Assembly (NCBI GenBank): GCA_026874595.1
Contig: CM049319.1
Coordinates: forward strand, 38,259,473-38,323,472
Source: Sipunculus nudus
Taxonomy: Eukaryota; Annelida; Sipuncula; Golfingiida; Sipunculidae
Length of the DNA stretch: 64,000 bases
Direction of reading: 5' to 3'
Shown here in pieces: positions 10,401 to 40,400 of the stretch (positions are counted from its first letter, which is position 1; the number at the start of each line of letters is the position of its first letter). The notes under the pieces were generated by a model. That model made no database searches. It had not been told where the DNA came from and saw nothing but the letters and a program-made list of their open reading frames with translations. The position numbers and the translations under genes are program-made.

Positions 10401-13400
10401 AAGAACATGAGTTAGTATTTTCAACAAATGATCACCAAAATTACCTATGGCAATATAGATCACAGGAAAAATATATAAATACTTCAATTCAAAGGGCTAA
10501 AATTGAATAGTGGCTGTTTATTTTAATGGCAAAACATAAATTTTCTTAGAACTTTGCACAGATTTTGGCGACAGGTTCATTGTTACTTATTTAAGAGCTC
10601 TAGAGGTCACAAAATGAGCCCTGTTAACAGAAGAAGGGTATATCATTTCATTCACTTGACTTAGATGGGTAACACTGGGTATTCTCAGATTGACTGTTAT
10701 TTAAGCAAAGAGGGTAAACATCTCCAGCAGTTTCAGAAAGATAGGGATGAAGAGAAGCAGAAGCCAGCTGCAGCATCGTCAGATTTTGAGATGGTAAAGC
10801 CATTCAGAAGGGGATGCTAGGTCTGAACATCCATGCAAATCAACTTAATACATTACACATCTCAGTGTCCTTGTGTTTATAAATGGATGTGGCACTAAAT
10901 ATAAAACACTGACTGGGTCCTTACATAACCAGCCATGCTGCACTTAAAGGGTGTTTTGGATCAGTACAAGCAAATACTACAGAACACACCACAGTGTTTT
11001 ACTGCATCATGGTAATCATATTGTTCACAGAAAGGTACAAAATCTGGCTCAGGGTTTAGTTAAACAATAAATTATATCTTATGTTCAATTCCAGCTACAG
11101 TTAGCGTACTTCCATTATTGCATTTAGATGTTTTATCAATTTTTAACAGACTGTACTAGCAAGCTCAGTCTCCATCCATTTCTGAAGTTCAATTGTTAAA
11201 ATACAACTGACTATAAACTGTTGAAAATTATCACCAGCACTTGTATTTGAGTTTATTACTAATGGTATAAGACATTTTCACTACTCCAGGCTTTTACTGT
11301 GTTTACATCTCGCATCTGATGGTTCAACAAACTCAAAATACTGTAATTAAATGACCAATAAGGCAAATTTAAAACAGTAATTACTGGGTAATGACTAAGC
11401 TATTTACCTCTGTCTTTTTTTTTAATTCTTATATCATAGTCAGACTGGATAGTGATTACAATTAACAGCAAATATAGTCTAAAAATCTTAAGTGTTAAAC
11501 TGATAATAAGGGTTTAAGGTAATCCCATTTTATATCTTTTGTTGAAAGCAAGAAAGAAACACAGATTGAAAAACATATTTAGATAAAATTAAAACATAAA
11601 CCAAGTTTACAGTTCCTGTTGGTGTGATATTTATAACAGCTTACTGGACTTGATAAATCTTGAATCAAACATCATAACTGAACATCATGCAAACATTTTT
11701 CATACAGAAAGTGTTAGTTAAATCTAAAGTGACCATTAGAGGTGCATTTGCTGAACTAAGTGCCATTACATGTGCAAAAGGTGCATTAAAATCATTAAAT
11801 ACCCACATATTGTACAAAGTGCAACTATGTACACAAGTCCATATTTACATAATTTACAACTTTTTGATTCCCTTTTTTAAAAAAATCCATTGGAACAGGC
11901 AATTCTTGAGAGTTCCCCCTCATCCCCCCCCCCCCCCCCCCAAGGAAAGACCCTCCGCAGATCACCACAAACTCCAGAAACTCCACTTTAAACTGTAAAT
12001 ATGCTGATCAGACGCCAGTCTGATGGTCTGACTGCAGTGACAAGGTTGTGTTGAATGAAGTAGGTGTTACAGTAAGCCAGAGTCCAGGCCAGGGCGGAAG
12101 TCAAACTGGCATGCATGGCTATTTCAGAACTTTCTGTCATAGAAACAGTTGTTACCTAACAGGAAATACTTGATGAAGAATTAACAAATCAATTAACTGC
12201 TTTTGTAAGGTGTGATGCCAGAATTATGGTGACAAGTTGGAAACCCCATAGTAATTAGACTACCAGATCAAACTATTCATACCTGCTTTACTGTACAGTA
12301 CTAAATTCCAAGCACACAACCTTTGGTAATCTGTTCACACGATCTTAAAACCAGTAGATTAAAACCTTAATTAAGGCATGGAGAATAATATTAAATACCA
12401 GCTAAAACTGTCATTCTGACTGGTACGGTATGAGAACATTTTGGTTTATTCTTTTGTACAAAAGACAGGAAATCTCAGGTTGCTATCATAAAATTTACAA
12501 TGACATTACATGTACAGTATATTTTTCTTTGGAACATGGTAATTGTTGTGTTTAGCATGACAGATCTCACACAAAAACTAACCCTATCAGATGTGTGATA
12601 TAATGTGTACCATTTTATGATAAATATACAACATATTATGATGAGCACTGAATATGGACAATAACATAATCTGACCGGGACAGCAAACTGAAGGTATCAC
12701 TTCACTACACCAAATCACTGGATACAAACTGAATTACCAACACACAGCTGAACATCTCTGTACTGTCACACCAAATATACAAAAACAGCCAACACCAAGA
12801 CATGATATGATGAGTCACACTCCAGATATGGAAGAGGTCAGTGTTTCCAACAAGTTGTATCAGATATCTGAACTGTTTCAAATTAAGCCAAGGAGTAGTC
12901 AGGCTTTGGTTTAATGACTGGGCTGTTTTACAAGGAGCCCGGAGAGATATACAAGATAGTCAGATAACAACTGTTTAACAACTACCAAATGGAGACATGC
13001 AGCTGTCTGAGAGTTCAGCTAAATGTAACCAAGTGGGACATGAAGTTTCCTCACTAAACTGTGTCACATGGAGCTAGGAGGGACAGACTGGAAAGTTCAT
13101 GTCTGAATACTGATCTCTGTTACAGGGAGCAAGGAAGGACAGACTGGAAAGTTCATGTCTGAATACTGATCTCTGTTACAGGGAGCTAGGAAGGACAGAC
13201 TGGAAAGTTCATGTCTGAATACTGATCTCTGTTACAGGGAGCTAGGAGGGGCAGACTGGAAAGTTCATGTCTAAATACTGATCTCTGTTACAGGGAGCTA
13301 GGAACTGGAAAGTTCATGTCTGAATACTGATCTCTGTTACAGGGAGCTAGGAGGGACAAACTGGAAAGTTCATGTATGAACTCTTATCTCTGTTACAGGG

Positions 13401-16400
13401 AGCTAGGAGGGACAGGCTTGAAAGTTGATGTCTGAATACTGATCTCTATTACAGGGAGCTAAGAGGGACAGACTGGAAAGTTTATGTCTTGAAACTGATC
13501 TGTTACATGGAGCTAGGAGGGACAGACTGGAAAGTTCATGTCTGAATACTGATCTTTGTTACAAGGAGCTAGGAAGGACAGAATGGAAAGTTCATGTCTG
13601 AATACTGATCTCTGTTACAGGGAGCTAGGAGGAACAGACTGGAAAGTTCATGTCTGAATACTGATCTCTGTTACAGGGAGCTAGGAGGGACAAACTGGAA
13701 AGTTCATGTGTGGAAACTGATCTGTTACAGGGAGCTAGGAGGGACAAACTGAAAAGTTCATGTATGAACACTTATCTCTGTTACAGGGAGCTAGGAGGGA
13801 CAGGCTGGAAAGTTCATGTCTGAATGCTGATCTCTGTTAGAGGGAGCTAAGAGGGACAGACTGGAAAGTTCATGTCTGAATACTGATCTCTATTACAGGG
13901 AGCTAGGAGGAACAGACTGGAAAGTTTATGTCTGGAAACTGATCTGTTATATGGAGCTAGGAGGGACAGACTGGAAAGTTCATGTCTGGAAACTGATCTG
14001 TTACAGGGAGCTAGGAGGGACAAACTGGAAAGTTCATGTGTGGAAACTGATCTGTTACAGGGAGCTAGGAGGGACAAACTGGAAAGTCTATGTCTGGAAA
14101 CTGATCTGTTACATGGAGCTAGGAGGGACAAACTGGAAAGTTCATGTGTGGAAACTGATCTGTTACAGGGAGCTAGGAGGGACAGACTGGAAAGTTCATG
14201 TCTGGAAACTGATCTGTTACATGGAGCTGGGAGGGACAGACTGGAAAGTTCATGTCTGGAAACTGATCTGTTACAGGGAGCAAGGAAGGACAGACTGGAA
14301 AGTTCATGTCTGAATACTGATCTCTGTTACAAGGAGCTAGGAGGGACAGACTGGAAAGTTCATGTCTGAATACTGATCTCTGTTACAGGGAGCTAGGAAC
14401 TGGAAAAACTGGAAAGTTTATGTCTGGAAACTGATCTGTTACATGGAGCTAGGAGGGACAGACTGGAAAGTTCATGTGTGGAAACTGATCTGTTACAGGG
14501 AGCTAGGAGGGACAAACTGGAAAGTTCATGTGTGGAAACTGATCTGTTACAGGGAGCTAGGAGGGACAAACTGGAAAGTTCATGTGTGGAAACTGATCTG
14601 TTTCATGGAGCTAGGAGGGACAGACTGGAAAGTTCATATCTGGAAACTGATCTGTTACAGGGAGCTAGGAGGGACAGACTGGAAAGTTTATGTCTGGAAA
14701 CTGATCTGTTACATGGAGCTAGGAGGGACAAACTGGAAAGTTCATGTGTGAAAACTGATGTGTTACAGGGAGCTAGGAGGGACAGACTGGAAAGTTCATG
14801 TATGAACACTTATCTCTGTTACAGGGAGCTAGGAGGGACAGGCTGGAAAGTTCATGTCTCAATACTGATCTCTGTTACAGGGAGCTAAGAGGGACAGACT
14901 GGAAAGTTCATGTCTGAATACTGATCTCTGTTACAGGGAGCTAGGAGGAACAGACTGGAAAGTTTATGTCTGGAAACTAATCTGTTACATGGAGCTAGGA
15001 GGGACAGACTGGAAAGTTCATGTCTGGAAACTGATCTGTTACAGGGAGCTAGGAGATACAGTTTGGAAAGTTCATGTCTGAAAACTGATCTGTTTCATGA
15101 AACTAGGAAGGTCAGATTGGAAAGTTAATGTCTGAAAAAATATCTGTGTTACAGGGAGCTAGGAGGGATAGACTGGATATTAATGTATGGCAACTGATCT
15201 CTGTTACATGGAGCTATGAGGGACAGACTGGAAAGTTCATGTCTGAATACTGATCTGTGTTACAGGGAGCTAGGAGATACAGTTTGGAAAGTTCATGTCT
15301 GGAAACTGATCTGTTACATGGAGCTAGGAGGGACAGATTGGAAAGTTCATGTCTGAAAACTGATCTGTTTCATGAAACTAGGAGGGTCAGATTGGAAATA
15401 TATATATCAGATTGATATATATTACATGGAGCCAGGAGGGACAAAGAGCTGTCTGGATAATTTTTCAGAATGAATAAATTCACGTAATTCTGTCTAATAA
15501 TACTAAGTGCACAGTGCATTCAAGCTAAGTTTACATCATGTGCCTTCTCTGGGAACATATGTGCATTAAAGTTATGTTGATAAGTATAAGAAGGATCAAA
15601 CAAGTTTCCAACTGACCAACATAACCTGGCAAAAATTATCTAATTCAATGGGGTGATTAGTGTCTTATACAACTATCATCCACGGGGTAAACAAACAGAA
15701 CACTAATGTGGTTGACCATGCTGGATTTGATATCCCTACACAGGAAGAGCCATGCATGCTTACACTTTGTTTTTCCACCACTGGTCCGAATGTTAGTGAC
15801 AGCACGAGCAATGGGGTTTCGCCGTGGGGTTTCAGGTGTGCATGACTTGAAGCCGAGCTCCCCAGCGGATGCAGCAGATAACATGAGAGAGTCGAGACTA
15901 GTGAGTGAGTCACTAGGAGAGTGAGATAACCGTTGGTTACCCATTGGTGTTGACTGCACGATGGCCGAGAAATACTTCTCCTGCTCCAGGCTTGTTGAGG
16001 TTTCTCCGGTTGATGCTAAAAATAACACATTGTCCAAAATTAATTATCATCATTTATTATTTAATTAAAATAAAAACAAGGTGATCACAACTTGGCAGTG
16101 TTTTACAAGTTGGGCCTTAATTATCAACACATTTTAACGTGACAACATCCCATATATACATATACCTTGATACATGACAGGGTTTGAAAAATTACATTGA
16201 ATTAGTTAGTATTATCTATGACAGGACAGAAGTATGTGCAGTTATATTTCCACCTGCTTGTGCTCACAGTGAAAATGATGGTTCAAGTTTGTATTCAGAA
16301 AAACTAGGCCATTCTGACCTGGTTTCAAATTTTGAAGGAGACTCTGTTGAAAGAAGGGTCAAAGACAATGATTAGTAAACAACAGAAACAATCAGTACAA

Positions 16401-19400
16401 ACTGTACATCTCTGATCTATTTGCATACAGTGAGTGTTGACATATAGGTGTATAATATCTTATACATGCCTGAAAGCTCATGCACCAAATGGACAATTAA
16501 AGCACACAAAAGTCAGCACAACATGAAGAAGGTCAATCCACAACAGCAGGCACATGATTTTGCTGCTAATTTCAAAAATTTACTTTTGTCTAGCTTTTAA
16601 ATAAATGATGAATTGATTGCCTATGGTATAGTAAACACAAGTTAACAACATTTTATAAGTATTTGCTGACTGTCTTGATTTGTCAACTAAGTGGTTTTAT
16701 TGTACAGGATAGTTTAATGATGGTTAAGTCTCCAGTCAAAGCTTACACACAATATCTGTTCTTCTGTAACTTCAATATAATGCAAATACACAATGCTTGC
16801 AAAATTTCTCAACCAATGAAAGCTTACCACAAAGACCACCAAACGGTCAATCAAGTTCCATCAACTCAGACAGTACACCAAGCTAGAAAAGACTTAGCTC
16901 TATAAACAAAACAGTCCTCCTTATACTTCTTTGTGTAAGCTGATGCTTAATTTCCTTAAATACCCCCTGAATCTATTAAATTTAAATACAAACCTTTTGA
17001 AACTCAATATTTAATAATTTCTGAAGTTTTGCAATGTAACAAGTAAATTTTAGGTAAAGTTGATCAGGCTATAGACTCATTCTACAAATGTAAAGCAGTT
17101 TTCAAAAATGGACTGTGTGACTGCAAAATAAATCTCCCCAAACCAGCTGAGAGACATGTACATATGAGTGAGACACGGGACAGAACAGCCCCAAGACAAC
17201 ACACCTCTGGGTGTACCTGTAGCTACATTATGATGATGGCCCTTCAGCATCCCCATCACACCCTTGGCAAGGAAGCCACTGGCTCGTAACAATACTGCTT
17301 TTGTTGTTCTATGTCGCCAGGTGACAACAGGAAACCTGCAAAGAGAGGAATGGGCTGCTGAGACTTATCTCTCGTATGATTTAATACTCATCCCTAGCAT
17401 TGCAATTATTTATCTATGTTAAAGGTGGTTTTTATTACATACAATATCTTGGGCTCTTCAATGTGATTGGTGAATATTCTGTTTAAGATGTCATGAGTAT
17501 ATGGCTGGTGATTTTATTATTATTGGCCAATAATACCTATTATGCCATGATTTAGCACACTATATTATGGTGCTATTTGATTAAGCTAAGCTAGCGACAC
17601 CTCATCAGGTGGTCATGTGATCATTAAAGCAGACTGATATCCTGGATGTTTATTACGTTAACCAGGTGGGATTCTGTCCATGTTGTTCAGATAATTAACA
17701 TGTTCGGTATCATGTAAAACAGAAGGGATTTTACCCTGATGAAAGGTAATCACTCCAGATGTTTTACTATTATTATGCTGTTAAAATATCTGTAACAAAG
17801 TTTCAGATTTGGTAAAACTTGCAAAGATATAAAGCTGAATGGTAATAAAATCACACAGCCATCAATTGGCAGCGAAATTTGTTAATACAGGGTGGCAAAA
17901 AGAGTTTGTTATTACAGTGAACTAGAGGATGGCAAAAAGAGGGATCTTTCATCTCAACCAGTTTTTCTCAAAACAGACAAGGTTTTTTCTCTGAGATGGA
18001 ATTGTGAAAACTGTGCTTATCCATGGTAATGACACAACTTTTACTTACCTATACTGCCTATGACTGCGAGCAAATTTGCGTATACTGTCATCTGTGACCG
18101 AATGGGGTACAACCAGCACTGCAGGATAGCTGGAAAAACAAACACACTAAAAGGTTTCTTGACAAACTGGTACTTTAAAATACACCTAATTATTCTGTCT
18201 ACCGTAAAATCTCCACTTAAAACCGCACTTCCGATTAAAACCGCACCCAGACTTCGCCGAAATTCCAGGCGAGACACCGTGAGGGGCTCAAATACTAAGA
18301 ACCCCCCTTTAAAACCGCACCAACTTTCGCTATGAAATGATTTGACAAAGGACACAATCAAGCAATCATCTAGAAATGAACACGCGTAGGTTGCGACTCG
18401 GCCATTCCTGTCCACTTTAAAAATTCCTTTGGCATTTTATTTAAACACATCATAACACTTTTTTTTTGCAGGGTCACTCAAGCATGAAGTTAGGGAAGAC
18501 GCAAGGGCAGGTGAACCCCTGCCTGTTTATACAGATTTTATATTCCGTGCCGTATTCTTGTTTGCTACTGATTTGTCATTATATTTTGGAAAAAATATTC
18601 TGCTGATCCATTTCAAGTCACTGTATATTTTAATTCTAAAAGTAATATTTTGAAATCTTAATTTTTTATGAAAATTCCATTTTCTGGAATTTCTCGGAAG
18701 ATTCAAATCATTTTCATACCGGTTACTTCAGTATTATCTTCGTCACATCGTACGTTGATATCGCTCCATGTCACAATTTGCTGGTGCGTTTGAAAACATC
18801 GCTGGTCAACTTAACTAAATATTAAAGTAACTGAAGTTACCTTTTCGAGATACGCACATATAGGAAACATGCACTTGAAAACGAGTGATTTTAAGGTAAA
18901 ATTAAAGTGGCCAGTCCGGGTTAGCAAGTTTTTTTCCTGAAGAAACTTTCCGTGTGGAGAGCCATTTTGTCAAGGCAGTGTTCGCGCAAGGCACGCTGGG
19001 ACAAAATAGGTGGCTGTTCTATTTACCACTCACAGCGTACAGCCGTTCAAAATATTCTTAGCAGAATACCGGGGTGTTTCAGCACATGGCGGCACTCAAA
19101 CTTGATTTTAAAACGATCATCTGCCATTGTGTGACTCTTTACGATGTAAGCTTTTTATTCATTTTACGTTTTAAACAAATAATCATTGCTAAATAATGCT
19201 GCAAATGGGTTTAAAGTAGGCTTTTATTTCAATTTTGCTTGACCATGCCCAACGAAGTGGACTGCTGTGTGTAACAGCAGGGTTGTTGTAAACGTATTAT
19301 TTGATGACAATTACCAAGATTTTATAACAAGTTATATATCACACGAAAACTAATTAGCAATATTTAATTTATAAATAACCAATAATCGTAAATAATACAT

Positions 19401-22400
19401 TTACACACGGCTCCCATGCATGCTAAGAACAGCCTTCAAATGTTGCAATATTATCCCCCACGCGCTGGCCCAAAAACGATGTCTCTCAGGAAGATATTCA
19501 GGAAACCCTTCTAGTATAAACCGCACAGTGCTTTCAGGAAATCAACCTGATTTCAAGATTTTGAATTTCTTGATTAAACCGCGGTTTTAAGTGGAGATTT
19601 TACGGTACTTCCAAAATCATGAATGAGCCCTTCTAAAATGACAACCACAGTGTCAATGCTACAAACACAGGCATAACATTTGTATAAAAACTAAATTGAA
19701 CTAATTACATGGTATGTAATGGGAATGACTTGGAATAAATTATTATTTTATTTCACATTAAATTGGCTGTAATGTAAAGGTGTCATGCTATGTTTTCAAA
19801 ATAAATTTACAAATTCTGCAACACCTAAAGCTTGGTGACTATGGCAGAGAGCTGTCCCTAAGGAAGGCTACCTCTATAGCTTCATTATCTGTGGTTTTAT
19901 TGAATAAGGTGATCTATGTCGCCAATTAACTTGAATGATTTCTTTGAAACAACATTGTAATGATACAAATAAACAGCTTGGGAATATTGGTCTATATCTG
20001 ACATTGATAACCAGCAGACTAGGTGTTCCCTTCTGCATAATGAGTATGACACTGATAACCAGCAGATGATGTGTTACCTTCTGCATAATGAGTATGACAC
20101 TGATAACCAGCAGATGATGTGTTACCTTCTGCATAATGAGTATGACACTGATAACCGGCAGATGATGTGTTACCTTCTGCATAATGAGTATGACACTGAT
20201 AACCAGCAGATGATGCATTACCTTCTGCACAATGGGTATGACACTTATAACCAGCAGATGATGTGTTACCTTCTGCACAATGGGTATGACACTGATAACC
20301 AGCAGATGCTGTGTTACCTTCTGCATAACGAGTATGACACTGATAACCAGCAGATGGTGTGTTACCTTCTGCATAACGAGTATGACACTGATAACCAGCA
20401 GATGCTGTGTTACCTTCTGCATAAACACACCTTCTGCATAAAGAGTATGACACTGATAACCAGCAGATGATGTGTTACCTTCTGCATAACAAGTATGACA
20501 CTGATAACCAGCAGATGCTGTGTTACCTTCTGCATAACGAGTATGACACTGATAACCAGCAGATGCTGTGTTACCTGAAACAAGTATGACACTGATAACC
20601 AGCAGATGCTGTGTTACCTTCTGCATAACAAGTATGACACTGATAACCAGCAGATGCTGTGTTACCTTCTGCATAACGAGTATGACACTAATAACCAGCA
20701 GATGCTGTGTTACCTTCTGCATAAACACACCTTCTGCATAAAGAGTATGACACTGATAACCAGCAGATGATGTGTTACCTTCTGCATAATGAGTATGACA
20801 CTGATAACCGGCAAATGATGTGTTACCTTCTGCATAATGAGTATGACACTGATAACCAGCAGATGATGCATTACCTTCTGCACAATGGGTATGACACTTA
20901 TAACCGGCAGATGATGTGTTACCTTCTGCATAACGAGTATGACACTGATAACCAGCAGATCGTGTGTTACCTTCTGCATAACGAGTATGACACTGATAAC
21001 CAGCAGATCGTGTGTTACCTTCTGCATAACGAGTATGACACTGATAACCAGCAGATGCTGTGTTACCTTCTGCATAACAAGTATGACACTGATTACCAGC
21101 AGATGCTGTGTTACCTTCTGCATAACAAGTATGACACTGATAACCAGCAGATGCTGAGTTACCTTCTGCATAACGAGTATGACACTGATAACCAGCAGAT
21201 GCTGTGTTACCTTCTGCATAAACACACCTTCTGCCTAAAGAGTATGACACTGATAACCAGCAGATGATGTGTTACCTTCTGCATAATGAGTTTGACACTG
21301 ATAACCAGCAGATGCTGTGTTACCTTCTGCATCAAGAGTATGACACTGATAACCAGCTGATGCTGTGTTACCTTCTGCATAACGAGCATGACACTGATAA
21401 CCAGCAGATGCTGAGTTACCTTCTGCATAACGAGTATGACACTGATAACCAGCAGATGCTGTGTTACCTTCTGCATAAACACACCTTCTGCATAAAGAGT
21501 ATGACACTGATAACCAGCAGATGATGTGTTACCTTCTGCATAATGAGTTTGACACTGATAACCAGCAGATGCTGTGTTACCTTCTGCATCAAGAGTATGA
21601 CACTGATAACCAGCTTATGCTGTGTTACCTTCTGCATAACAAGTATGACACTGATAACCAGCAGATGCTGTGTTACCTTTTGCATAATAGGTATGACACT
21701 GATAACCAGCAGATGCTGTGTTACCTTCTGCATAACAAGTATGACACTGATAACCAGCAGATGCTGTGTTACCTTTTGCATAATGGGTATGACACTGATA
21801 ACCAGCAGATGCTGTGTTACCTTTTGCATAATGGGTATGACACTGATAACCAGCAGATGCTTTGTTACCTTTTGCATAATGGGTATGACACTGATAACCA
21901 GCAGATGATGTGTTACCTTCTGCGTAATGGGTATGACACTGATAACCAGTAGATGATGTGTTACCTTCTGCATAACGAGTATGACACTGATAACCAGCAG
22001 ATGGTGTGTTACCTTCTGCATAACGAGTATGACACTGATAACCAGCAGATGGTGTGTTACCTTCTGCATAACAAGTATGACACTGATAACCAGCAGATGG
22101 TGTGTTACCTTCTGCATAACAAGTATGACACTGATAACCAGCAGATGATGTGTTACCTTCTGCATAACGAGTATGACACTGATAACCAGCAGATGGTGTG
22201 TTACCTTCTGCATAACGAGTATGACACTGATAACCAGCAGATGATGTGTTACCTTCTGCATAACAAGTATGACACTGATAACCAGCAGATGGTGTGTTAC
22301 CTTCTGCATAACAAGTATGACACTGATAACCAGCAGATGATGTGTTACCTTCTGCATAACAAGTATGACACTGATAACCAGCAGATGGTGTGTTACCTTC

Positions 22401-25400
22401 TGCATAATGAGTATGACACTGATAACCAGCAGATGATGTGTTACCTTCTGCATAATGAGTATGACACTGATAACCAGCAGATGATGTGTTACCTTCTGCA
22501 TAACAAGTATGACACTGATAACCAGCAGATGGTGTGTTACCTTCTGCATAACGAGCATGACACTGATAACCAGCAGATGATGTGTTACCTTCTGCATAAT
22601 GAGTATGACACTGATAACCAGCAGATGGTGTGTTACCTTCTGCATAACGAGCATGACACTGATAACCAGCAGATGATGTGTTACCTTCTGCATAATGAGT
22701 ATGACACTGATAACCAGCAGATGATGTGTTACCTTCTGCATAACGAGCATGACACTGATAACCAGCAGATGATGTGTTACCTTCTGCATAATGAGTATGA
22801 CACTGATAACCAGCAGATGATGTGTTACCTTCTGCATAATGGGTATGACACTGATAACTAGCAGATGGTGTGTTACCTTCTGCATAATGAGTATGACACT
22901 GATAACCAGCAGATGATGTGTTACCTTCTGCATAACGAGCATGACACTGATAACCAGCAGATGATGTGTTACCTTCTGCATAATGAGTATGACACTGATA
23001 ACCAGCAGATGATGTGTTACCTTCTGCATAATGGGTATGACACTGATAACCAGCAGATGGTGTGTTACCTTCTGCATAACGAGCATGACACTGATAACCA
23101 GCAGATGATGTGTTACCTTCTGCATAACGAGCATGACACTGATAACCAGCAGATGATGTGTTACCTTCTGCATAATGAGTATGACACTGATAACCAGCAG
23201 ATGGTGTGTTACCTTCTGCATAATGGGTATGACACTGATAACTAGCAGATGATGTGTTACCTTCTGCATAATGAGTATGACACTGATAACCAGCAGATGA
23301 TGTGTTACCTTCTGCATAACGAGCATGACACTGATAACCAGCAGATGATGTGTTACCTTCTGCATAATGAGTATGACACTGATAACCAGCAGATGATGTG
23401 TTACCTTTTGCATAATGGGTATGACACTGATAACCAGCAGATGGTGTGTTACCTTCTGCATAACGAGCATGACACTGATAACCAGCAGATGATGTGTTAC
23501 CTTCTGCATAATGAGTATGACACTGATAACCAGCAGATGGTGTGTTACCTTCTGCATAACGAGCATGACACTGATAACCAGCAGATGATGTGTTACCTTC
23601 TGCATAATGAGTATGACACTGATAACCAGCAGATGGTGTGTTACCTTCTGCATAACGAGCATGACACTGATAACCAGCAGATGATGTGTTACCTTCTGCA
23701 TAATGAGTATGACACTGATAACCAGCAGATGGTGTGTTACCTTCTGCATAATGGGTATGACACTGATAACCAGCAGATGATGTGTTACCTTCTGCATAAT
23801 GAGTATGACACTGATAACCAGCAGATGGTGTGTTACCTTCTGCATAACGAGCATGACACTGATAACCAGCAGATGATGTGTTACCTTCTGCATAATGAGT
23901 ATGACACTGATAACCAGCAGATGATGTGTTACCTTCTGCGTAATGGGTATGACACTGATAACCAGCAGATGATGCATTACCTTCTGCATAATGAGTATGA
24001 CACTGATAACCAGCAGATGATGTGTTACCTTCTGCATAATGAGTATGACACTGATAACCAGCAGATGGTGTGTTACCTTCTGCATAACGAGCATGACACT
24101 GATAACCAGCAGATGATGTGTTACCTTCTGCATAATGAGTATGACACTGATAACCAGCAGATGATGTGTTACCTTTTGCATAATGGGTATGACACTGATA
24201 ACCAGCAGATGGTGTGTTACCTTCTGCATAACGAGCATGACACTGATAACCAGCAGATGATGTGTTACCTTCTGCATAATGAGTATGACACTGATAACCA
24301 GCAGATGATGTGTTACCTTCTGCATAACAAGTATGACACTGATAACCAGCAGATGATGTGTTACCTTCTGCATAACGAGCATGACACTGATAACCAGCAG
24401 ATGGTGTGTTACCTTCTGCATAATGAGTATGACACTGATAACCAGCAGATGATGTGTTACCTTCTGCATAATGAGTATGTGCAATTGACTAGCGTCAGCC
24501 TGAAGGGGTTGTAGCGGCCCTTGTTTGGGTTTCCAAGCAACGAGCCCAGACACAAGCGGCTGTAGTCCTGGCAGTACAGTCGCTCAGCAAGACGGTCAGG
24601 ATTCCTGGCATCTGCTTGCATTATATGTGTGATTTCTGTCTCTTCTATTACTGTAAGAAGTGAAAATAAAAAGAATATTACACAAACACAACATAGATAT
24701 CACACATATTGTGTTCCATCCAAGCCTGAACACATGAGTAAGTAAGCTTTGAAATATACTGTAATGTGTGACACGTGTCCTGATGATCAGCTGATGAACT
24801 TATCTTTACCAATGAGACCCAATACAAACTTAGGTCTGAATCAAAGCATACTAAAAAGACTGGATAATTTTTACACATACAGCACTGACAGTTGAAGGCA
24901 TCTTACACTCAAACTTAGAATTGGTTTTGCAGGTTAAGTATTTTAAGTCTGTAAATATATTTTATTTATCACTTAATACTGAACCAAAATGAAATGTGAA
25001 ACAAGTTTGAACTTTCAGAGATTTAATCAGAGATAACAGTTTGCATCATCAAATAATAAAAGCCATAAAAATACTGTTTGTGCTAGAATTCTAAGTCATA
25101 AAATAATCATAGGGAGCTTTTGTTGTTTGAGCAGCAAAATCAATTTTCCAGGCTCCTACCCTGCCATGTGTCAACTAAGAAAACTGAGAGCTATCTGAGT
25201 TATATTATAACTTACTGGTCACAAATTTTTATAATCATTTTTGCAAATATAATGTTATGTCTGGCACCCAATATCTTCTGAACTGCTGGGGCTGTTAGCA
25301 CCAGATTCATAAGCATACTGATCCTCTGAACAGCAGGCTGGTATAAATTGCAGGTAGGGCCACTTGTACTGACTTAAAAATTTCTGTGAGTCAAAATGAT

Positions 25401-28400
25401 TTTCCCCCACTTATATCTACTCAAGTCAGAATATATAAACCTTGGATGTCAAGGTTAATTATTCATTAGAAAAACTGGAATTAAAGGAATACTAACTGAA
25501 ATGAATTATTATCAAGATGGCTGCTCTATAGAATTTTGCACAATGCAATATTTGCTGTTTTCTGTGTCTGCTAATAAATGGAAATACTAACTGAAATGAA
25601 TTATTATCAAAATGGCTGCTCTATAAAATTTTGCACATTGCAATATTTGATGTTTTCTGTGTCTGCTAATATATGTCTGATAAAAAATTTGGATAATGTG
25701 ACTTTAATGGTATGTAAGCTACAGGTGGTGCCACTTATGTTGACTTATTTTTGGACTCTTCAGTGAGACTTTAATTCAGAATCTCTAAACACTGATATGA
25801 GTTTGACCCTTAAGTTTCTGCTCTGTAGTTCTGAGAATATAGGTCACCTTGACCTGAATTCAAGTTTTAGGGTCTGAAGACTGTATGGATGCCAATTTTG
25901 ACCATGCTGGCTGGCTGGATTATGTTAGATATTGAATCATCACTGAAGCTCTGTGTTACTCGGCCGTACTAAGAATGACATTTTGATGACCAAATTAAGA
26001 AGATGGAAATAGAAAATGGAAAGTAGTTCCTACATGAACTGACAGAACGTTCAGTCCTAGAGGTCATTATATGACTCAGTTCAGTCAGTGACTGCAGGTT
26101 TTGAGGATAGAATGCTTTCTGACTTGGGGTAGAGTGAAATATAGCACACAGAGTGAAGTATATAAGGTCACAGATTTAAACTTCAGTATATGTAACATTA
26201 TATATCATGCTTCTCCAAATGCTAAGTACACTATGTAAGATGCCATAATAGGTGTTCTGTAAAAATGAATAAGTTTAACACCAACTGCAAGAACTGAAAA
26301 ATAAATAAACCAAAATCAACTAAGCCTGCTAAAGAACAAATCAACCATACATCTAGATTAAAATCAAATAAATGGCTCAGTAAAGCTTGAAACTATGACA
26401 TCAGGCACCCCAGAATGCTGTAAAAAAAATATTAAGAATACTGCTGCATCCTGGAAATTATTTCTTAACTTTGATGTGAAAATTGATCTGAGCAAAAGAA
26501 GATAACTAATGACTCAACTCACACATCTTTGATTGCTGAAAGGTGACCTTCAATCAGTCTTTTTTTTTATAACTTTTTGTATGAAAGTAAATGGACCTAT
26601 TTTTTGTGTTATCTTACCTGTAATACAAACAGGTTCATTATGTATTGGCCCCCTTTTGGTGGTGTGGCTATCTGGCACTTGACTAACAGTATTATATCTC
26701 AATGATTACCCATAGTCTGGAAAACCTGGTTTAAACACACTGAATATTGCTACACCACAGATTCCTCTCTCAGAGACTGAATTTGCCAAAACAACCCATC
26801 ATCTAGTGGCGTACCTACACATTCACAACTGCCCTGGGAAAAACCCAATATCAGAAAAATTAGTTCCCCATTTATTTAAAGAATTTATTTGAAGAATTTG
26901 AGCAGACTGAGCTTAAAAGTTTTGGAATTGTCAATCTGCCCATCATTATTCAAAAAGACTATGGGAGTGAAAATTATCAGTCTGTCTCCAGCTGTTTGAC
27001 AGAGCTGGTAGGATAAATCTCCATGAAAGTTTGCTTGATGACATGGACCTCTGTGTAAACAATGTGTCTCCTGAATCTCTTTTTCATTATCTATTGAACT
27101 GATTAGCATAAAAACTCGGATATTAGTGATGTTAGTTTAAACAATACAACAAAAATACATAAATCACACAATAAGTCTGTAACCCAAGGAAATAAATCAA
27201 ATTTAATGAGAAATAAAACACCAGGACTATCCCTTAAACCCTGTTATGAAAATAATTTCTGGTTTGATTATGAAGTATGAAGGGAGCACAATGGTGACAT
27301 TTCATCAGTTTCCTATTTAAGGCACTCAACGTTTGGCTAATGTTTTAAATTCTATCACTGCCACGTGAATGTTAACTTGTATATGCTACTAGACTATGTA
27401 GATCAGATGGGTGCAAGATTAAAATATCCTGCACAACTTCGCTGAAATCTTTTATTCTTACAATGACTGATATTGTTTACTGCACTCTGACACAGAACCA
27501 CCTCAGAAGAAGTCTGCATGAGATAGTTCAAGCAGGAAAATCCCTCACCAAACTCTGGTAAATTTCTGTATCACTGAACCGTCATTCCCCTAAAGTGACA
27601 CATTGTGAATGAACAACTGAAACGTCCCCTACTACTCAAAATGTGCTCAAAAGGACCATCATTTGCCAAGTGTAAAGGGGGATACAGATCTACCTATGAA
27701 TTGCTTAATAACTACAGCTTCTTTAGGTTCCAGTGCAATCTTTATATGATTGTCTTGTAATTTCAGGCTTCTTTAGGTGCCAGTGCAATCTTTATATGAT
27801 TGTCTTGTAAGTTCAGGCTTCTTTAGGTGCCAGTGCAATCTTTATATGATTGTCTTGTAAGTTCAGGCTTCTTTAGGTGCCAGTGCAATCTTTATATGAT
27901 AGTCTTGTAAGTTCAGGCTTCTTTAGGTGCCAGTGCAATCTTTATATGATTGTCTTGTAAGTTCAGGCTTCTTTAGGTGCCAGTGCAATCTTTATATGAT
28001 TGTCTTGTAATTTCAGGCTTCTTTAGGTGCCAGTGCAATCTTTATATGATTGTCTTGTAAGTTCAGGCTTCTTTAGGTGCCAGTGCAATCTTTATATGAT
28101 TGTCTTGTAAGTTCAGGCTTCTTAAGGTGCCAGTGCAATCTTTATATGATTGTCTTGTAAGTTCAGGCTTCTTTAGGTGCCAGTGCAATCTTTATATGAT
28201 TGTCTTGTAAGTTCAGGCTTCTTTAGGTGCCAGTGCAATATATATGATTGTCTTGTAAGTTCAGGCTTCTTTAGGTGCCAGTGCAATCTTTATATGATAG
28301 TCTTGTAAGTTCAGGCTTCTTTAGGTGCCAGTGCAATCTTTATATGATTGTCTTGTAAGTTCAGGCTTCTTTAGGTGCCAGTGCAATCTTTATATGATTG

Positions 28401-31400
28401 TCTTGTAATTTCAGGCTTCTTTAGGTGCCAGTGCAATCTTTATATGATTGTCTTGTAAGTTCAGGCTTCTTTAGGTGCCAGTGCAATCTTTATATGATTG
28501 TCTTGTAAGTTCAGGCTTCTTAAGGTGCCAGTGCAATCTTTATATGATTGTCTTGTAAGTTCAGGCTTCTTTAGGTGCCAGTGCAATCTTTATATGATTG
28601 TCTTGTAAGTTCAGGCTTCTTTAGGTGCCAGTGCAATATATATGATTGTCTTGTAAGTTCAGGCTTCTTTAGGTGCCAGTGCAATCTTTATATGATTGTC
28701 TTGTAAGTTCAGGCTTCTTTAGGTGCCAGTGCAATCTTTATATGATTGTCTTGTAAGTTCAGGCTTCTTTAGGTGCCAGTGCAATCTTTATATGATTGTC
28801 TTGTAAGTTCAGGCTTCTTTAGGTGCCAGTGCAATCTTTATATGATTGTCTTGTAAGTTCAGGCTTCTTTAGGTGCCAGTGCAATCTTTATATGATTGTC
28901 TTGTAAGTTCAGGCTTCTTTAGGTGCCAGTGCAATCTTTATATGATTGTCTTGTAATTTCAGGCTTCTTTAGGTGCCAGTGCAATCTTTATATGATTGTC
29001 TTGTAATATCAGGCTTCTTTAGGTGCCAGTGCAATCTTTATATGATTGTCTTGTAAGTTCAGGCTTCTTTAGGTGCCAGTGCAATCTTTATATGATTGTC
29101 TTGTAATTTCAGGCTTCTTTAGGTGCCAGTGCAATCTTTATATGATTGTCTTGTAATTTCAGGCTTCTTTAGGTGCCAGTGCAATCTTTATATGATTGTC
29201 TTGTAAGTTCAGGCTTCTTTAGGTGCCAGTGCAATCTTTATATGATTGTCTTGTAAGTTCAGGCTTCTATTTTTCTTACTCACACATGAAAGTCATTTTG
29301 GTTATTAATACAACACACACAAAATTGCGTCTGTATTTTATATACAGACTGGGCTTGACCAGCATGCTAGTTTATATAAAGACTGGGCTTGACCAGCATG
29401 CTAGCTTATATACAGACTGGGCTTGACCAGCAAGCTAAATTTTATACAGACTGGGCTTGACCAGCCTTCTGGTTAATATACAGACTGGGCTTGACCAGCA
29501 TGCTAGTTAAATGCTGTTAATATTTATTTTGTAACGCTTGATAATCCTGGGATGCCTGAATAAATAAAACTTAAATCAAGGAAATAAGGAAGAAAGCCAA
29601 ATCACACGTACTATTTTTATACTTGCCTGCCAACTGATCATCAAAAGACACTGCAGCGGGTCTGTCCCGGTCAAAGTCCGTGGATATCTGCCGTCTCTGG
29701 GGAGGAGGTGTTGGCATTATGTATTTCTGCTTTCTTGTTGTTTCTTTGGTCATGAAGCCAGCTTTTCTGGCTGTTTTCATTAGTGTTCTCTTTGCAAACC
29801 CTCTGTCAACAGATCAACAGGTCAACATGTTATATATCACATTCATAATCATCAATATAATGCATCAAAATACACTGGTTAATTCACAAAATGTGAGACT
29901 GGAAAGTGATTACAGATTTATCACAGTAGTAATAAACATCAAATGACAGTAAAATATATTGCTTTTGAGACTCAGACTATAATGTTAACTTGGTTGTAGT
30001 GCTGGAACAGATAAACTGATCATGCGGCTCTGATATATGTCCATTTAAACACAAGTCTGTCAGTGATGTGGTTTTATACACAAGTCTGTCAGTGATGTGC
30101 TGTTATACACCAGTCTGTCAGTGATGTGGTATTATAAACAAGTCTGTCAGTGATGTGGTGTTATACACATGTCTGTCAGTGATGTGGTGTTATACACAAG
30201 TCTGTCAGTGATGTGGTGTTATACACAAGTCTGTCAGAGATGTGGTGTTATACACAAGTCTGTCAGAGATGTGGTGTTATACACAAGTCTGTCAGTGATG
30301 TGGTGTTATAAACAAGTCTGTCAGTGATGCGGTGTTATACACAAGTCTGTCAGTGATGTGGAGTTATACACAAGTCTGTCAGTGATGTGGTGTTATAAAC
30401 AAGTCTGTCAGTGATGTGGTGTTATACACAAGTCTGTCAGTGATGTGGTGTTATAAACAAGTCTGTCAGTGATGTGGTGTAATAAACAAGTCAGTCAGTG
30501 ATGTGGTGTTATACACAAGTCTGTCAGTGATGTGGTGTTATACACCAGTCTGTCAGTGATGTGGTGTTATAAACAAGTCTGTCAGTGATGTGCTGTGATA
30601 CTGATAACTAATGATGCTGATTTTGTGACACCGTGTGAACATGAGCACTTTTAGTCCCACTGGGTTTGTTCTTAATTCATGGTATGCTACTTCAAATAAT
30701 GCTCAATGTACCAGAGATTTTCAAAGCTGTCCACTGGCTTGTACTTACTTGAGTGATGCATTTTTTTCCTTGTGTTTATGGAGCTGTGATGGTGGCAAGG
30801 CAAAGTGACTGGAAAAAGTGAAGGTGGTCAATACTGAAGTTGGACTACGAATCTTGTTCATCAGCTTCCGCAAGGTCTCAATGTCTTCTGCACTGACCTC
30901 TTCATCAAATGCTATCTTCATTAGCTGGAGAAAACATTTTATATACCTAAATGATTACATTATATATATTACATTAACAATATATTGTTTCAAATATGGT
31001 ATGGTATAACAGTTGCAGATCCTGAAAGATTGTGTTTAAAAAATTTAGACATAATCATCCCTACCCCCATACCTTTGCCAAAAAAGGGGACCATGGTAAT
31101 AACCATGCATTAAAATAATGAGGCAGCCTGTCCAAGGCCAGTGGTTTTGTCTGTGTTGTCTGGTTTCCTCAATCTTTAGACACTACTGAATGCCAAGAAC
31201 TGAGCCATGGAAAGTGCCTCAATTTGATATAATAATTATCTATACAATAAATGTAACATAAATGAAGTACAGTGGAACCCCACAATTACGACCACCCTGG
31301 GGACTGAGCAAAGTGGTCGTAACTTTGGCGTGGTCGTATTTGTGAAACTCTTACCGTGGTCGCATATAACACGCCGATATTTAATGTGTATCAGAGTTTA

Positions 31401-37400: not shown

Positions 37401-40400
37401 CCCTGAAGTAAAAGATATACATGAAATATAAACAAGTCACCTGCTTGAAAAATTATGGCATAAAACTGATGGATTTTGAGATTATTTTTAAATTTAAGAA
37501 AAAAAAAATGACTCATGATCACTGGCTGACAAGGTCTGAGAGCTGACAAATTAAAATTCTGAACTTGAGAAGTTGTGGGACATGAGTCTTCTTTGTAAGA
37601 AGTAACCACTATTCTGCAAAAAAAAACTTGAAAATATGTTTAAGAATTAAGCTCTACTTCATTGCTCATCTAATTTTGAGTCATGACAAAAAAGCATGAC
37701 AAAAAGTGTCAACATCAATTTTAAGCAGGACAAAAAGTGTCAACATCAAATTTTAAGCAGGACAAAAATGGTCAACACCTATTTCTCACAGGGAAAAAAC
37801 TGACAAAATCTACTTTAAAACACTACTTTAAGCAGGACAAAAAGTGTCAACACCTATTTTTAGCAGAACAAAAAGTGTCAACATCAATTTTAAGCAGGAC
37901 AAAAATGGTCAACACCTATTTTAAGCAGGACAAAATGGTCAACATCTATTTCAAACAGGAAAAAACTGACAAAATCTACTTTAAAAAGGACAAAATGTGT
38001 CAACACTACTTTAAGCAGGACAAAAAGCATAAACATCAATTTTAAGCATGACAAAAAGTGTCAACATCAATTTAAGCAGGACAAAAAGTGTCAACATCAA
38101 TTTTAAGCAGGACAAAAAGTGTCAACATCTGTTATAAACAGGACAAAACATGTCAACATCTATTTTAAGCAGGACAAAAAGTGTCAACATCTGTTATAAA
38201 CAGGACAAAAAGTGTCAACATCTACTTTAAGCAGGACAAAAAGTGTCAACATCTATTTTAAGCAGGACAAAAATGGTCAACACCTATTTTAAGCAGTACA
38301 AAAAGTGTCAACATCTGTTATAAACAGGACAAAACATGTCAACATCTATTTTAAACAGGACAAAAAGTGTCAACATCTATTTTAAGCAGGACAAAAAGTG
38401 TCAACATCTAATTTAAGCAGGACAAAAAGTGTCAACATCTATTTTAAGCAGGACAATAATGGTCAACATCTAGTTTAAGCAGGATAAAAAGTGTCAACAT
38501 CTATTTTAATCAGTCAAAAACTGTCAACATCTACTTTAAGCAGGACAAAAATGGTCAACACCTATTCATAATCTGTTTGTTTTCCTGGGATACCAAATTA
38601 CATGTGCATTACAATTAAGTATTTGCTCACAGAGTGCCATCCACTGTACAACTTATGCGGAATGCGGTGGTGTATGGTTAGGGTGTCAGACTTGCGGGGG
38701 ATCTGCCTTCTGAACAATAAGGGTGTGTCCTCTCCACCAAGGAGTGAATGGGTACTAGCCATGGGCAGAAAAGGTCAGATGAATAACCTTCTAGCATTTA
38801 TTATGGCAGCATAGATTGTATGCTCTTAAAGGGGTAGAAAAAGCTGCGAGAATGAACAGGCCCAAAACGACTAGGAAGGTCAAGTGTAAACACTGTCAGT
38901 GATATCAGACTATAAACTCATTTTTCTTTAATTCAAATCTATTCATTCAAGCACATAAGAGTTTCATGAAAAGCCATATATCATATGTGAGAATTTTATG
39001 GATTTTTTTTTTTCAAATTTAAGCCAAAAAGAAATGTATTTTTATAATTTTTTTGTCAAAAGTCTAGTTGAGTAGTACAAGAAGCATATGTATCAAACTC
39101 CAGAAGCAGAATTCTGTGTCATTTTGCAAAATTGATTCATCAGGATGACTGCATCAAGGTGAAATTATGTCTAATTCTGCAATATCAGAAAATTTATGAA
39201 ACACATCTCAAACAAAATGAGAATAATATTTATAGTAAGATTTCACACTTATATGTTTCCACTATGTTTAAGGATGCTGCTGGGTGTTCATACCTGGGAT
39301 CATGGTGTGTAGGGACTTGATGTGATCGGGCAATACGCTGCTCTCCGTACACACTTTGTCTATAAACTTTGTGACAAACTTGACCACGCTGGCTCCTGTC
39401 TCTGGTACTTCCTGCTCATCAAATCCACTCTCATTGTCTAAACTATCACTCTCAGCCACACTGAAAAAACATTGTTACTCAAACTGTCATGATATTATCA
39501 ACAACAGACAGGCTAATAAAACATGCTGTCTTGTATCAATTTGTTTCCCATTTGGCGGAGTATGCCCTGACATCTAATGGTAAATACTCTGATTTGATTA
39601 TACATAAAGCCTGCAGATTGCACAATTCATATCTCACAGGTAAAAGCCTACTGATATCTATAGTAACACTGATGCTTTTTCCTCAATGACAGTGTAAGGG
39701 ATCCTATCACAACTATGTGAATAATGACTGATATGTGATCATCCTCACAAAGCCTCACACGGAGCTATCTCAGAGAAATTATATGAATGTGTCTACAGTG
39801 GAATGCCATTATTCCAAACTTCTAAGGAGACAAGGTTTGTATAGATAAACTATTATTCAGATAAATGGTCATGTTCAAAATAGCATCATGGCCCCAGGAT
39901 CATCAACCTGCTCAGGTGTCATGATTTAAATCAAAATCAAGTGTTAACTGGATATTTCTGGTCTGAGATGTTGTATGTATCCCAAGACACTAGGCATACC
40001 CCTGTTAATACAGGCCCCCTTCTTCTGCCTTCCAGATTCTTTTCTACCTTCCAGATTTGACCATGAAGATCAAGGTCAAGATCACCAGTTTCAAACTCCT
40101 AGAAGAATTGGGTTTAGACAATTTGTGTAACAAATTTTAGGGATAAATATGAAGTACTTATAAAGTTATGACAGTCACAAACAAGTGGCCCATGGGCCCA
40201 TGACGCTCAGCTGAATTCAAGGAATGTTGAACAATGAGCAAAATGACTGCCAGAGTGCAAACAAATCATGAATTTTGTGATGAATCCTTAGAAATGGGTT
40301 TCAGTGGCCTTTTGGACAGATGAAAACTTCATTTGAAGGTCTCATAAATAGAAAAAAAAATGCTTAAAAATTTGAAAAATAATACAGGTTGTGCCACCAG

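Follow-up and report, generated by a model that had tools for sequence, protein, structure and literature searches.

How a single 5' splice site is selected when several identical ones are on offer has usually been studied with constructs carrying few copies, and the question at stake is whether the donor used is the one nearest to the 3' splice site, the one transcribed first, or the one which closes a proper exon. A locus of Sipunculus nudus raises this question in a natural setting. Within the 64-kb stretch of DNA analysed here (the window), the end of a coding exon and its splice donor are copied about 90 times into the following intron, in the sense direction. How could such a ladder of donors have arisen, and does it play any part in the splicing of the gene which carries it?

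The gene is an SBF/MTMR5-13-like gene (hereafter SBF), which lies on the minus strand and is only partly contained in the window, running beyond its left edge. The exon concerned, called exon 21 in the initial annotation, spans 24461..24650 (190 nt) and gave a single match in the one assembly searched. On the minus strand it is directly preceded by TTCTTACAG, its acceptor reads TTACAG/TA (slashes mark splice junctions) and its 3' end reads AGAAG/GTAACA, with the last codon split after AG. The true 5' splice site, AAG/GTAACA, occupies 24455..24463 in phase 2 and is weak in comparison to the consensus, having C at +5 and A at +6. The intron which it opens, intron 21, is 6331 nt long (18130..24460) and is followed by an exon of 81 nt at 18049..18129 (TTTTTCCAG/CTATCC ... 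TATAG/GTAAGT). On its own, exon 21 had no Pfam match; joined, the two exons match Pfam Myotub-related (7.5e-10), and their protein aligns with MTMR1 and MTMR2 without gaps through the junction. This homology places the end of the exon at AGAAG/GTAACA, where the initial annotation had put it, and rules out an end elsewhere.

About 70% of intron 21 consists of a 48-bp minisatellite in sense orientation (19999..24479, minus strand), whose unit is made of 19 exon bases and 29 intron bases. Wraparound alignment resolved 92 rows: the unit of the true donor at 24460, 90 downstream units spanning 24412 to 20077, in which the GT is kept without exception (90/90), and one degenerate terminal unit (19999..20029), in which GT has become GG and which passes into single-copy intron (..CAATGTCAGATATAG..). 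The donor 9-mer of the downstream units is AAGGTAACA in 84 cases, i.e. exactly that of the true donor, AAGGTAATG in three, AAGGTAACT in two and CAGGTAACA in one. Four units are 65-bp variants, one at 21468..21532 and the remaining three starting at 21275, 20778 and 20478, and each contains one extra donor-like AAGGTGTGT site. The consensus unit is GTAACACATCATCTGCTGGTTATCAGTGTCATACTCATTATGCAGAAG, with no G run longer than two, the unit junction counted. U1-type sites are dense along 4.4 kb of the intron; scored with a weight matrix, 96 intron GT sites equal or exceed the true donor, 95 of them in the array (the true donor counted) and one in the other ~1.9 kb. The array is more homogeneous on its exon-proximal side. 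The 64-kb window as a whole is rich in minisatellites.

The last 19 bases of the exon (CATACTCATTATGCAGAAG, 24461..24479) are identical to the 19 bases which the consensus unit takes from the exon. Translated, this side of the unit yields the conserved N..Y.LC motif, which points to the exon as the source of the array. That the intron was invaded by a satellite from elsewhere, with the likeness of the exon end due to chance or conversion, is hardly credible. The abundance of minisatellites around the gene would suit an invasion, but the array probe matched this locus only, in a word search which skipped common words, and the consensus unit shares 19 exact bases with the exon at an end conserved in the protein. 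The 48-bp unit was likewise rejected as a dispersed satellite, since the probe matched the SBF locus only. It is also very unlikely that the copy number is partly an effect of assembly and lies far from the true one in either direction. Assembling long arrays of near-identical units is difficult, but graded unit variants, the 65-bp variants and the degenerate end unit are all present, and the anatomy described above is independent of the copy number.

The initial annotation had further proposed that use of a wrong decoy leads to an immediate in-frame stop, and the sequence agrees, as AGG TAA is read directly after the junction. An immediate TAA occurs in 4 of 13 donor arrays, the four being read as phase 2 with phases set by hand, and some of the other arrays stay open for up to ~9 units; any phase-2 AG/GTAA donor would create the "poison" TAA, which is thus a generic property. 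In the SBF array, columns -3 to +4 are free of variants, a second run of seven columns is just as invariant, and the donor columns showed no significant selection for or against (rotation rank 12 of 48). When donor columns were compared with the rest in ten pooled arrays, the difference was not significant either for divergence (mean z -0.12, P 0.36) or for distinct alleles (mean z 0.31, P 0.16), the latter leaning slightly to more variants in the donor columns. With an equally clean run elsewhere in the unit, that rank and these pooled values, donor conservation was discarded as a sign of selection.

These results bear on a functional role of the array, in which decoys would compete for U1 on RNA still being transcribed, delay splicing or lead it astray, and consign a length-dependent fraction of the SBF transcripts to decay. 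Such a modulator would fit the presence of 90 near-identical donors behind a weak true one, the absence of any lost GT among the 90 units and the TAA met at once in frame; by analogy, it may also draw on human precedents, IFI6 and TERT VNTR6-1, where minisatellites at a junction or within an intron are able to change splicing. We nevertheless consider it unlikely, given that the donor columns are not significantly conserved and that the same build recurs in other, unrelated genes whose donors are strong and whose frames are open. It is extremely unlikely that the array works as a U1 sink, or as a telescripting-like protection from premature polyadenylation along the intron. The density of U1-type sites over 4.4 kb would favour this, but the sites lack the contacts which G at +5 and T at +6 provide, can sit in a small hairpin and are under no significant selection; furthermore, the abundance of U1 greatly exceeds 90 sites on one gene. 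The hairpin is predicted locally over the donor, and its sequence is common to the true donor and many decoys. The folding of 144-nt stretches of the array did not surpass that of shuffled sequences (z 0.29 and 0.19), and RNA structure was set aside as an explanation on both grounds.

The apparent uniqueness of the SBF case is an effect of reading a single window. Partial genome searches listed 26 donor-motif arrays, whose edges were fetched for 25, and 24 of these could be judged. Fifteen of the 24 are exon-anchored, starting inside an exon-like frame at its donor, and the remaining 9 are not; these calls were made by eye. Homology at E <= 1e-3 was found for 6 of the 15. The number of downstream units ranges from 4 to 90 in the 13 arrays measured, and donor strength from weak (AAGGTAACA) to consensus (CAGGTAAGT). 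In the PRKAR1 and ABCC arrays, the protein is ungapped when the first donor is joined to the exon that follows. A short protein motif search of the fetched stretch did not find the next exon beyond the array for V-ATPase H, RhoGEF or L031. As a control, the motif CAGGTAAGA yielded 10 arrays, 7 of them exon-anchored, against 4 for the reversed motif in the same stretch, whereas AGGTAAGT, over the initial 7.6 Mb of C1, was not in excess (one array against three with the reversed motif). Raw pattern matches, motif versus reversed (528 vs 19, 1118 vs 653 and 265 vs 52), were excluded as evidence of enrichment, since these counts are dominated by a small number of long arrays. The donor-anchored arrays adjoin exons of unrelated genes, including genes with strong donors and open frames. 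Judged from sequence, arrays built of an exon end and its donor occur several times in this one genome and form a recurrent class.

What had been proposed for this locus thus stands in its anatomy, namely the origin of a sense array of about 90 decoys from the exon end and its donor, and the TAA which would follow a wrong choice. The roles offered for it as U1 sink, poison region or modulator of splicing rate are not upheld, as the donor columns are without significant selection, the TAA is generic and the same build lies beside unrelated genes. Among the readings of the initial annotation, the neutral by-product is best supported, and we regard it as probable that the SBF array is a recurrent, tolerated by-product of mutation, with the first donor chosen by exon definition and some leak to the next copies. 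The array would have begun as a tandem duplication which broke 19 nt before the end of the exon and ~29 nt into the intron, with a 2-bp CA overlap, and so placed a second exon end and donor in the intron; unequal exchange or slippage may later have expanded the array to about 90 units. Since copies would be added downstream only, the original junction would stay intact as the first unit. Protein conservation suggests that splicing most likely takes place at this first donor, which would be favoured because no other copy completes a normal exon of 190 nt together with the acceptor and enhancers belonging to it, and because transcription reaches it before the others. Low-level leak probably occurs at the one to three copies which follow, with the immediate TAA and decay as the outcome, and far copies would be inert. 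The mRNA is predicted to be unchanged by the array. In classical tests, however, duplicated identical donors favour the copy nearest to the 3' splice site, a preference which would predict heavy misuse of decoys here and counts against the first-donor model.

Several known systems share features with this locus. Recursive splicing (ratchet) sites repeat AG/GT in the sense direction in long introns, and the ABCC array (L028) resembles them in that its consensus unit carries a pyrimidine-rich CTTCATACAG/GTAAGT. The SBF unit differs: by eye it reads TTATGCAGAAG/GTAACA, without the pyrimidine tract of such sites before AAG/GT, and its junction is not significantly conserved. The unit of the human IFI6 minisatellite is reportedly short, at 12 bp. 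There, according to an excerpt of PMC4526556, additional donors are provided by two of the repeat units downstream. As in IFI6, minisatellite units supply donors in SBF, with a normal donor followed by downstream copies able to act as such; as in an IFI6/6-16-type case, the first SBF unit coincides with the authentic end of the exon and its donor, and the downstream donors are intact. The IFI6 decoys are reported to be used; those of SBF are candidate donors. SBF is set apart by its 48-bp unit (19 exon and 29 intron bases), its 90 decoys and the immediate stop which they bring, and Sipunculus nudus by several arrays of this build in one genome.

The potato RdRp case (PMC4974935) is one of intron gain in which a tandem duplication spans an exon-intron boundary, and it resembles the SBF case in copying splicing signals. 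In that model, a new intron arises whose donor and acceptor are both new; in SBF, by contrast, only the donor side was copied, many times over, and a single intron (24460-18130) gives the conserved protein. TERT VNTR6-1 is, like the SBF array, a long intronic minisatellite, with a 38-bp unit, and is located ~3.5 kb ahead of exon 7. The isoform ratio shifts when it is deleted, as shown in two cell lines, and it is proposed to act via a G-quadruplex (PMC11830802, in excerpt). The same excerpt does not describe it as a donor copy, and the SBF unit, with its short G runs, is not a G-rich repeat of the kind that forms a G-quadruplex in sense. TERT INS1 was rejected as a case of donor repeats, as it sits in intron 4, away from VNTR6-1 (PMC11830802, same excerpt).

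On a broader scale, donor-anchored minisatellites may be a genome-wide class, in which exons of conserved genes are flanked by ladders of near-identical donors, 4 to 90 in number. Splicing would leak down each ladder with a fall governed by unit length and donor strength, and copy number would be a heritable dial on the yield of many genes, or on protein length in open-frame cases such as ABCC; we hold this wider proposal to be unlikely. Each array is likely to be a length polymorphism at a splice junction. SBF, together with up to 15 more natural ladders from the partial searches, which vary in donor strength and in reading-frame outcome, provides a natural test of how a donor is chosen.

The minus-strand gene, which from its domain set we take to be an SBF/MTMR5-13-like pseudophosphatase, has its Pfam SBF2 domain in the stretch from roughly 47.8 to 51.9 kb of the window and a GRAM domain near 33.8 kb (8.4e-5, marginally under the cut-off set by Pfam), with myotubularin exons continuing past the left edge of the window. 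Its donor-bearing exon (24650-24461, minus strand) follows a pyrimidine-rich acceptor and ends in AGAAG|GTAACA. By itself this exon had no Pfam match; joined to the following one (18129-18049, minus strand) it matches Myotub-related at 7.5e-10, and MTMR1/MTMR2 chains align ungapped over the junction (best 3.8e-6). These matches across the junction identify AGAAG|GTAACA as the real donor and bear out the exon end proposed in the initial annotation.

The following intron (6331 nt) holds a minisatellite spanning 24479 to approximately 19999, whose 48-bp unit joins the terminal 19 bases of the exon to the initial 29 of the intron; a conserved coding motif in the unit marks the exon as its source. 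CA is present at both breakpoints of the copied segment (exon ..TTGCA|CATACTC; intron ..TGT|CAGATATAG), giving a 2-bp overlap. Of the 92 rows resolved by wraparound alignment, the first is the true donor unit (24460) and 90 are units downstream of it; the final row (20029) is degenerate, GT having become GG, and continues into single-copy intron. The claim of a sense array of about 90 decoy donors derived from the exon end is thus upheld: GT is kept in 90/90 downstream units and the exact 9-mer AAGGTAACA in 84/90, the remainder reading AAGGTAATG (n=3), AAGGTAACT (n=2) and CAGGTAACA (n=1), while four 65-bp variant units contribute AAGGTGTGT sites. Scored with a weight matrix whose frequencies come from general knowledge, 96 GT sites in the intron equal or exceed the true donor, 95 of them in the array (true donor counted) and 1 outside. 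The 51 exon-proximal decoys differ less from the consensus than the 39 distal ones (mean 1.55 vs 2.41 differences), which may reflect more recent growth or homogenisation close to the exon. A 290-base array probe gave 19 matches, all at this locus, in a genome search skipping very common words. Two minus-strand sense frames with 16-residue repeats (21464-24583; 21615-24488) stay open for about 1000 codons, which follows from the 48-bp period and is no sign of a gene. Many other minisatellites occur in the window (13062-15398, 27717-29268, 30045-30601, 37692-38566, 45707-46933 and 60782-61363), none of which, by eye and on an incomplete exon map, overlaps a placed exon.

Donor-bearing arrays are not unique to the SBF-like gene. 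The genome (one assembly; 1.43 Gb, 153 contigs) was queried with three spaced copies of AAGGTAACA, AGGTAAGT or CAGGTAAGA, and approximately the first 100 matches per motif, covering part of the genome, were considered; among the matches listed there are at least 26 distinct arrays. Upstream edges were inspected for 25 (C2:3686503, whose unit is the same as that of C2:85677, was left out), and as one fetched stretch, L025, fell short of the array start, 24 were assessable. Fifteen of the 24, judged by eye from frame and acceptor, are exon-anchored, starting within an open frame that is preceded by an acceptor-like AG and closing the first partial unit with a donor: the fetched stretches L024, L026, L028, L030, L031, L035, L044, L046, L047, L050, L051 and L052, together with L027, L029 and L045, which were read from the array start instead of the first motif copy. 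The other nine (L022, L023, L032, L033, L034, L036, L043, L048 and L049) are not exon-anchored.

Independent homology at E ≤ 1e-3 was obtained for 6/15 exon-anchored arrays: L030 (cAMP-dependent kinase RI, PRKAR1; 4.7e-25), L052 (V-ATPase H; 1.1e-11), L028 (ABCC2/MRP1; 8.7e-10, Pfam 4.5e-6), L035 (RhoGEF Pfam 1.5e-7; FGD6 5e-6), L050 (Armadillo; 9.5e-5) and L045 (Nup155 2.2e-4; Pfam 0.046). A following exon was located beyond the PRKAR1 and ABCC arrays, and the joined proteins align ungapped (3.8e-40 and 2.1e-26, respectively); in V-ATPase H, RhoGEF and L031 a short motif search of the fetched stretch gave no convincing one. The PH match of L026 is weak (0.016). L031 presumably resembles an acyl-CoA synthetase; its solved-structure search was empty and its Pfam matches were weak and unrelated (best 0.0093). 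No Pfam match was obtained for the exons of L024, L027, L029, L044, L046, L047 or L051.

Measurements covered the SBF array and 12 others, L027, L029 and L045 having been recognised later. Unit length ranges from 30 to 57 bp, the exact exon-derived part from 10 to 37 nt and the number of full downstream units from 4 to 90 (SBF 90, V-ATPase H 76, L046 58, ABCC 40). Outside SBF, GT is intact in most, not all, units (L050 8/12, L046 55/58); the donor content of these 12 is biased upward because they were found by exact donor motifs, a bias from which the SBF array, noticed in the initial annotation, is free. The ABCC consensus unit has a pyrimidine-rich AG immediately before GT, like recursive splice sites. 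This ABCC-like array, of 41 full units (L028/L038, approximately G000:C2:8512590-8514320), with a strong acceptor-like stretch immediately ahead of the donor in its consensus (CTGTATTTCTTCATACAG|GTAAGT) and a frame open for about 9 units, resembles a ladder of recursive splice sites.

Reversed motifs served as controls. AGAATGGAC, the reverse of CAGGTAAGA with equal composition, was listed completely and has 52 places in 10 arrays genome-wide; from the C1 start to C5:70.5 Mb it has 4 arrays vs 10 for CAGGTAAGA (7 exon-anchored and 3 not), an excess of about what exon-anchored arrays add. The opposite outcome came from TGAATGGA, the reverse of AGGTAAGT, with 3 arrays vs 1 among the matches listed up to 7.6 Mb on C1. 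AAGGTAACA gave 528 raw matches vs 19 for its reverse, the latter counted by match and not by array. On these small numbers it is plausible that tandem arrays arise irrespective of splice sites, donor-bearing seeds being found since real donors are common. In one control-motif match (G000:C13:1694820-1694987) a whole unit is amplified, seemingly an acceptor, a short exon start and a donor (TTCTCTTG.AG|AATGGACAGAGTGGGAAGACTG.G|GTGAGTT).

Harmful decoys would make donor columns decay faster than the rest of the unit, and useful ones slower. For the 10 arrays that have 8 or more decoys, divergence of the donor 9-mer was ranked against all rotations of its 9-column mask: z ranged from -1.01 to 0.93 (mean -0.12), SBF ranked 12 of 48, and the pooled test leaned non-significantly towards less divergence (P 0.36). 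Distinct alleles leaned to more variants in donor columns (mean z 0.31, P 0.16), and core and GT masks were unremarkable in the pooled test. SBF columns -3..+4 have zero variants in 90 units; another seven-column run without splice meaning is just as invariant. There is no significant selection signature in either direction, a result compatible with weak selection.

The initial annotation reasoned that decoy use would bring AGG TAA into frame, which is correct as read. The stop comes from the donor itself, since phase-2 AG|GTAA always reads (AG)G TAA: it is immediate in all four phase-2 arrays of the 13 (SBF, L024, L026, L046) and follows after 0.26 to 8.9 units in the others, with phases hand-set on whichever frame was taken as coding, which in L026 and L047 is a frame other than the longest open one. 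Being generic to phase-2 donors, it offers no evidence of a designed poison region.

Tandem copies were most likely added solely downstream of the true junction, so that the true donor would remain first, probably favoured by exon definition across the 190-nt exon and by transcription order. The first few copies may leak, with their products destroyed, and distant copies, which would require very long exons, would be ignored. Classically, splicing prefers whichever donor lies closest to the 3' splice site, a rule that predicts the opposite of first-donor use; such ladders would therefore be a sharp natural test. The suggestion that the array acts as a U1 sink is weakened by the SBF donor being weak at +5/+6 and by a possible 23-nt hairpin over it (-6.3 kcal/mol, z -3.1), longer folds of the array being unremarkable. 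The hairpin, GCAGA-A-GGU-AACAC-AUC-A-UCUGC (24445-24467 and similar units), is common to the true donor and many decoys, and is stronger in some decoys with C at unit column 9 (-8.9, vs -5.7 with G).

A search of open-licence PMC literature found no report of a donor-anchored minisatellite class, a negative result that argues weakly for absence. In human IFI6, two downstream repeat units act as donors and three mRNAs result (PMC4526556, citing Turri et al. 1995), which makes it the working precedent for splicing from repeat copies downstream of a normal donor. The donor-bearing minisatellite is thus an already known kind of element. What is new in S. nudus is its size (90 units, 4.4 kb), its exon-plus-intron unit and, above all, its recurrence across genes of one genome, as seen in partial genome searches.
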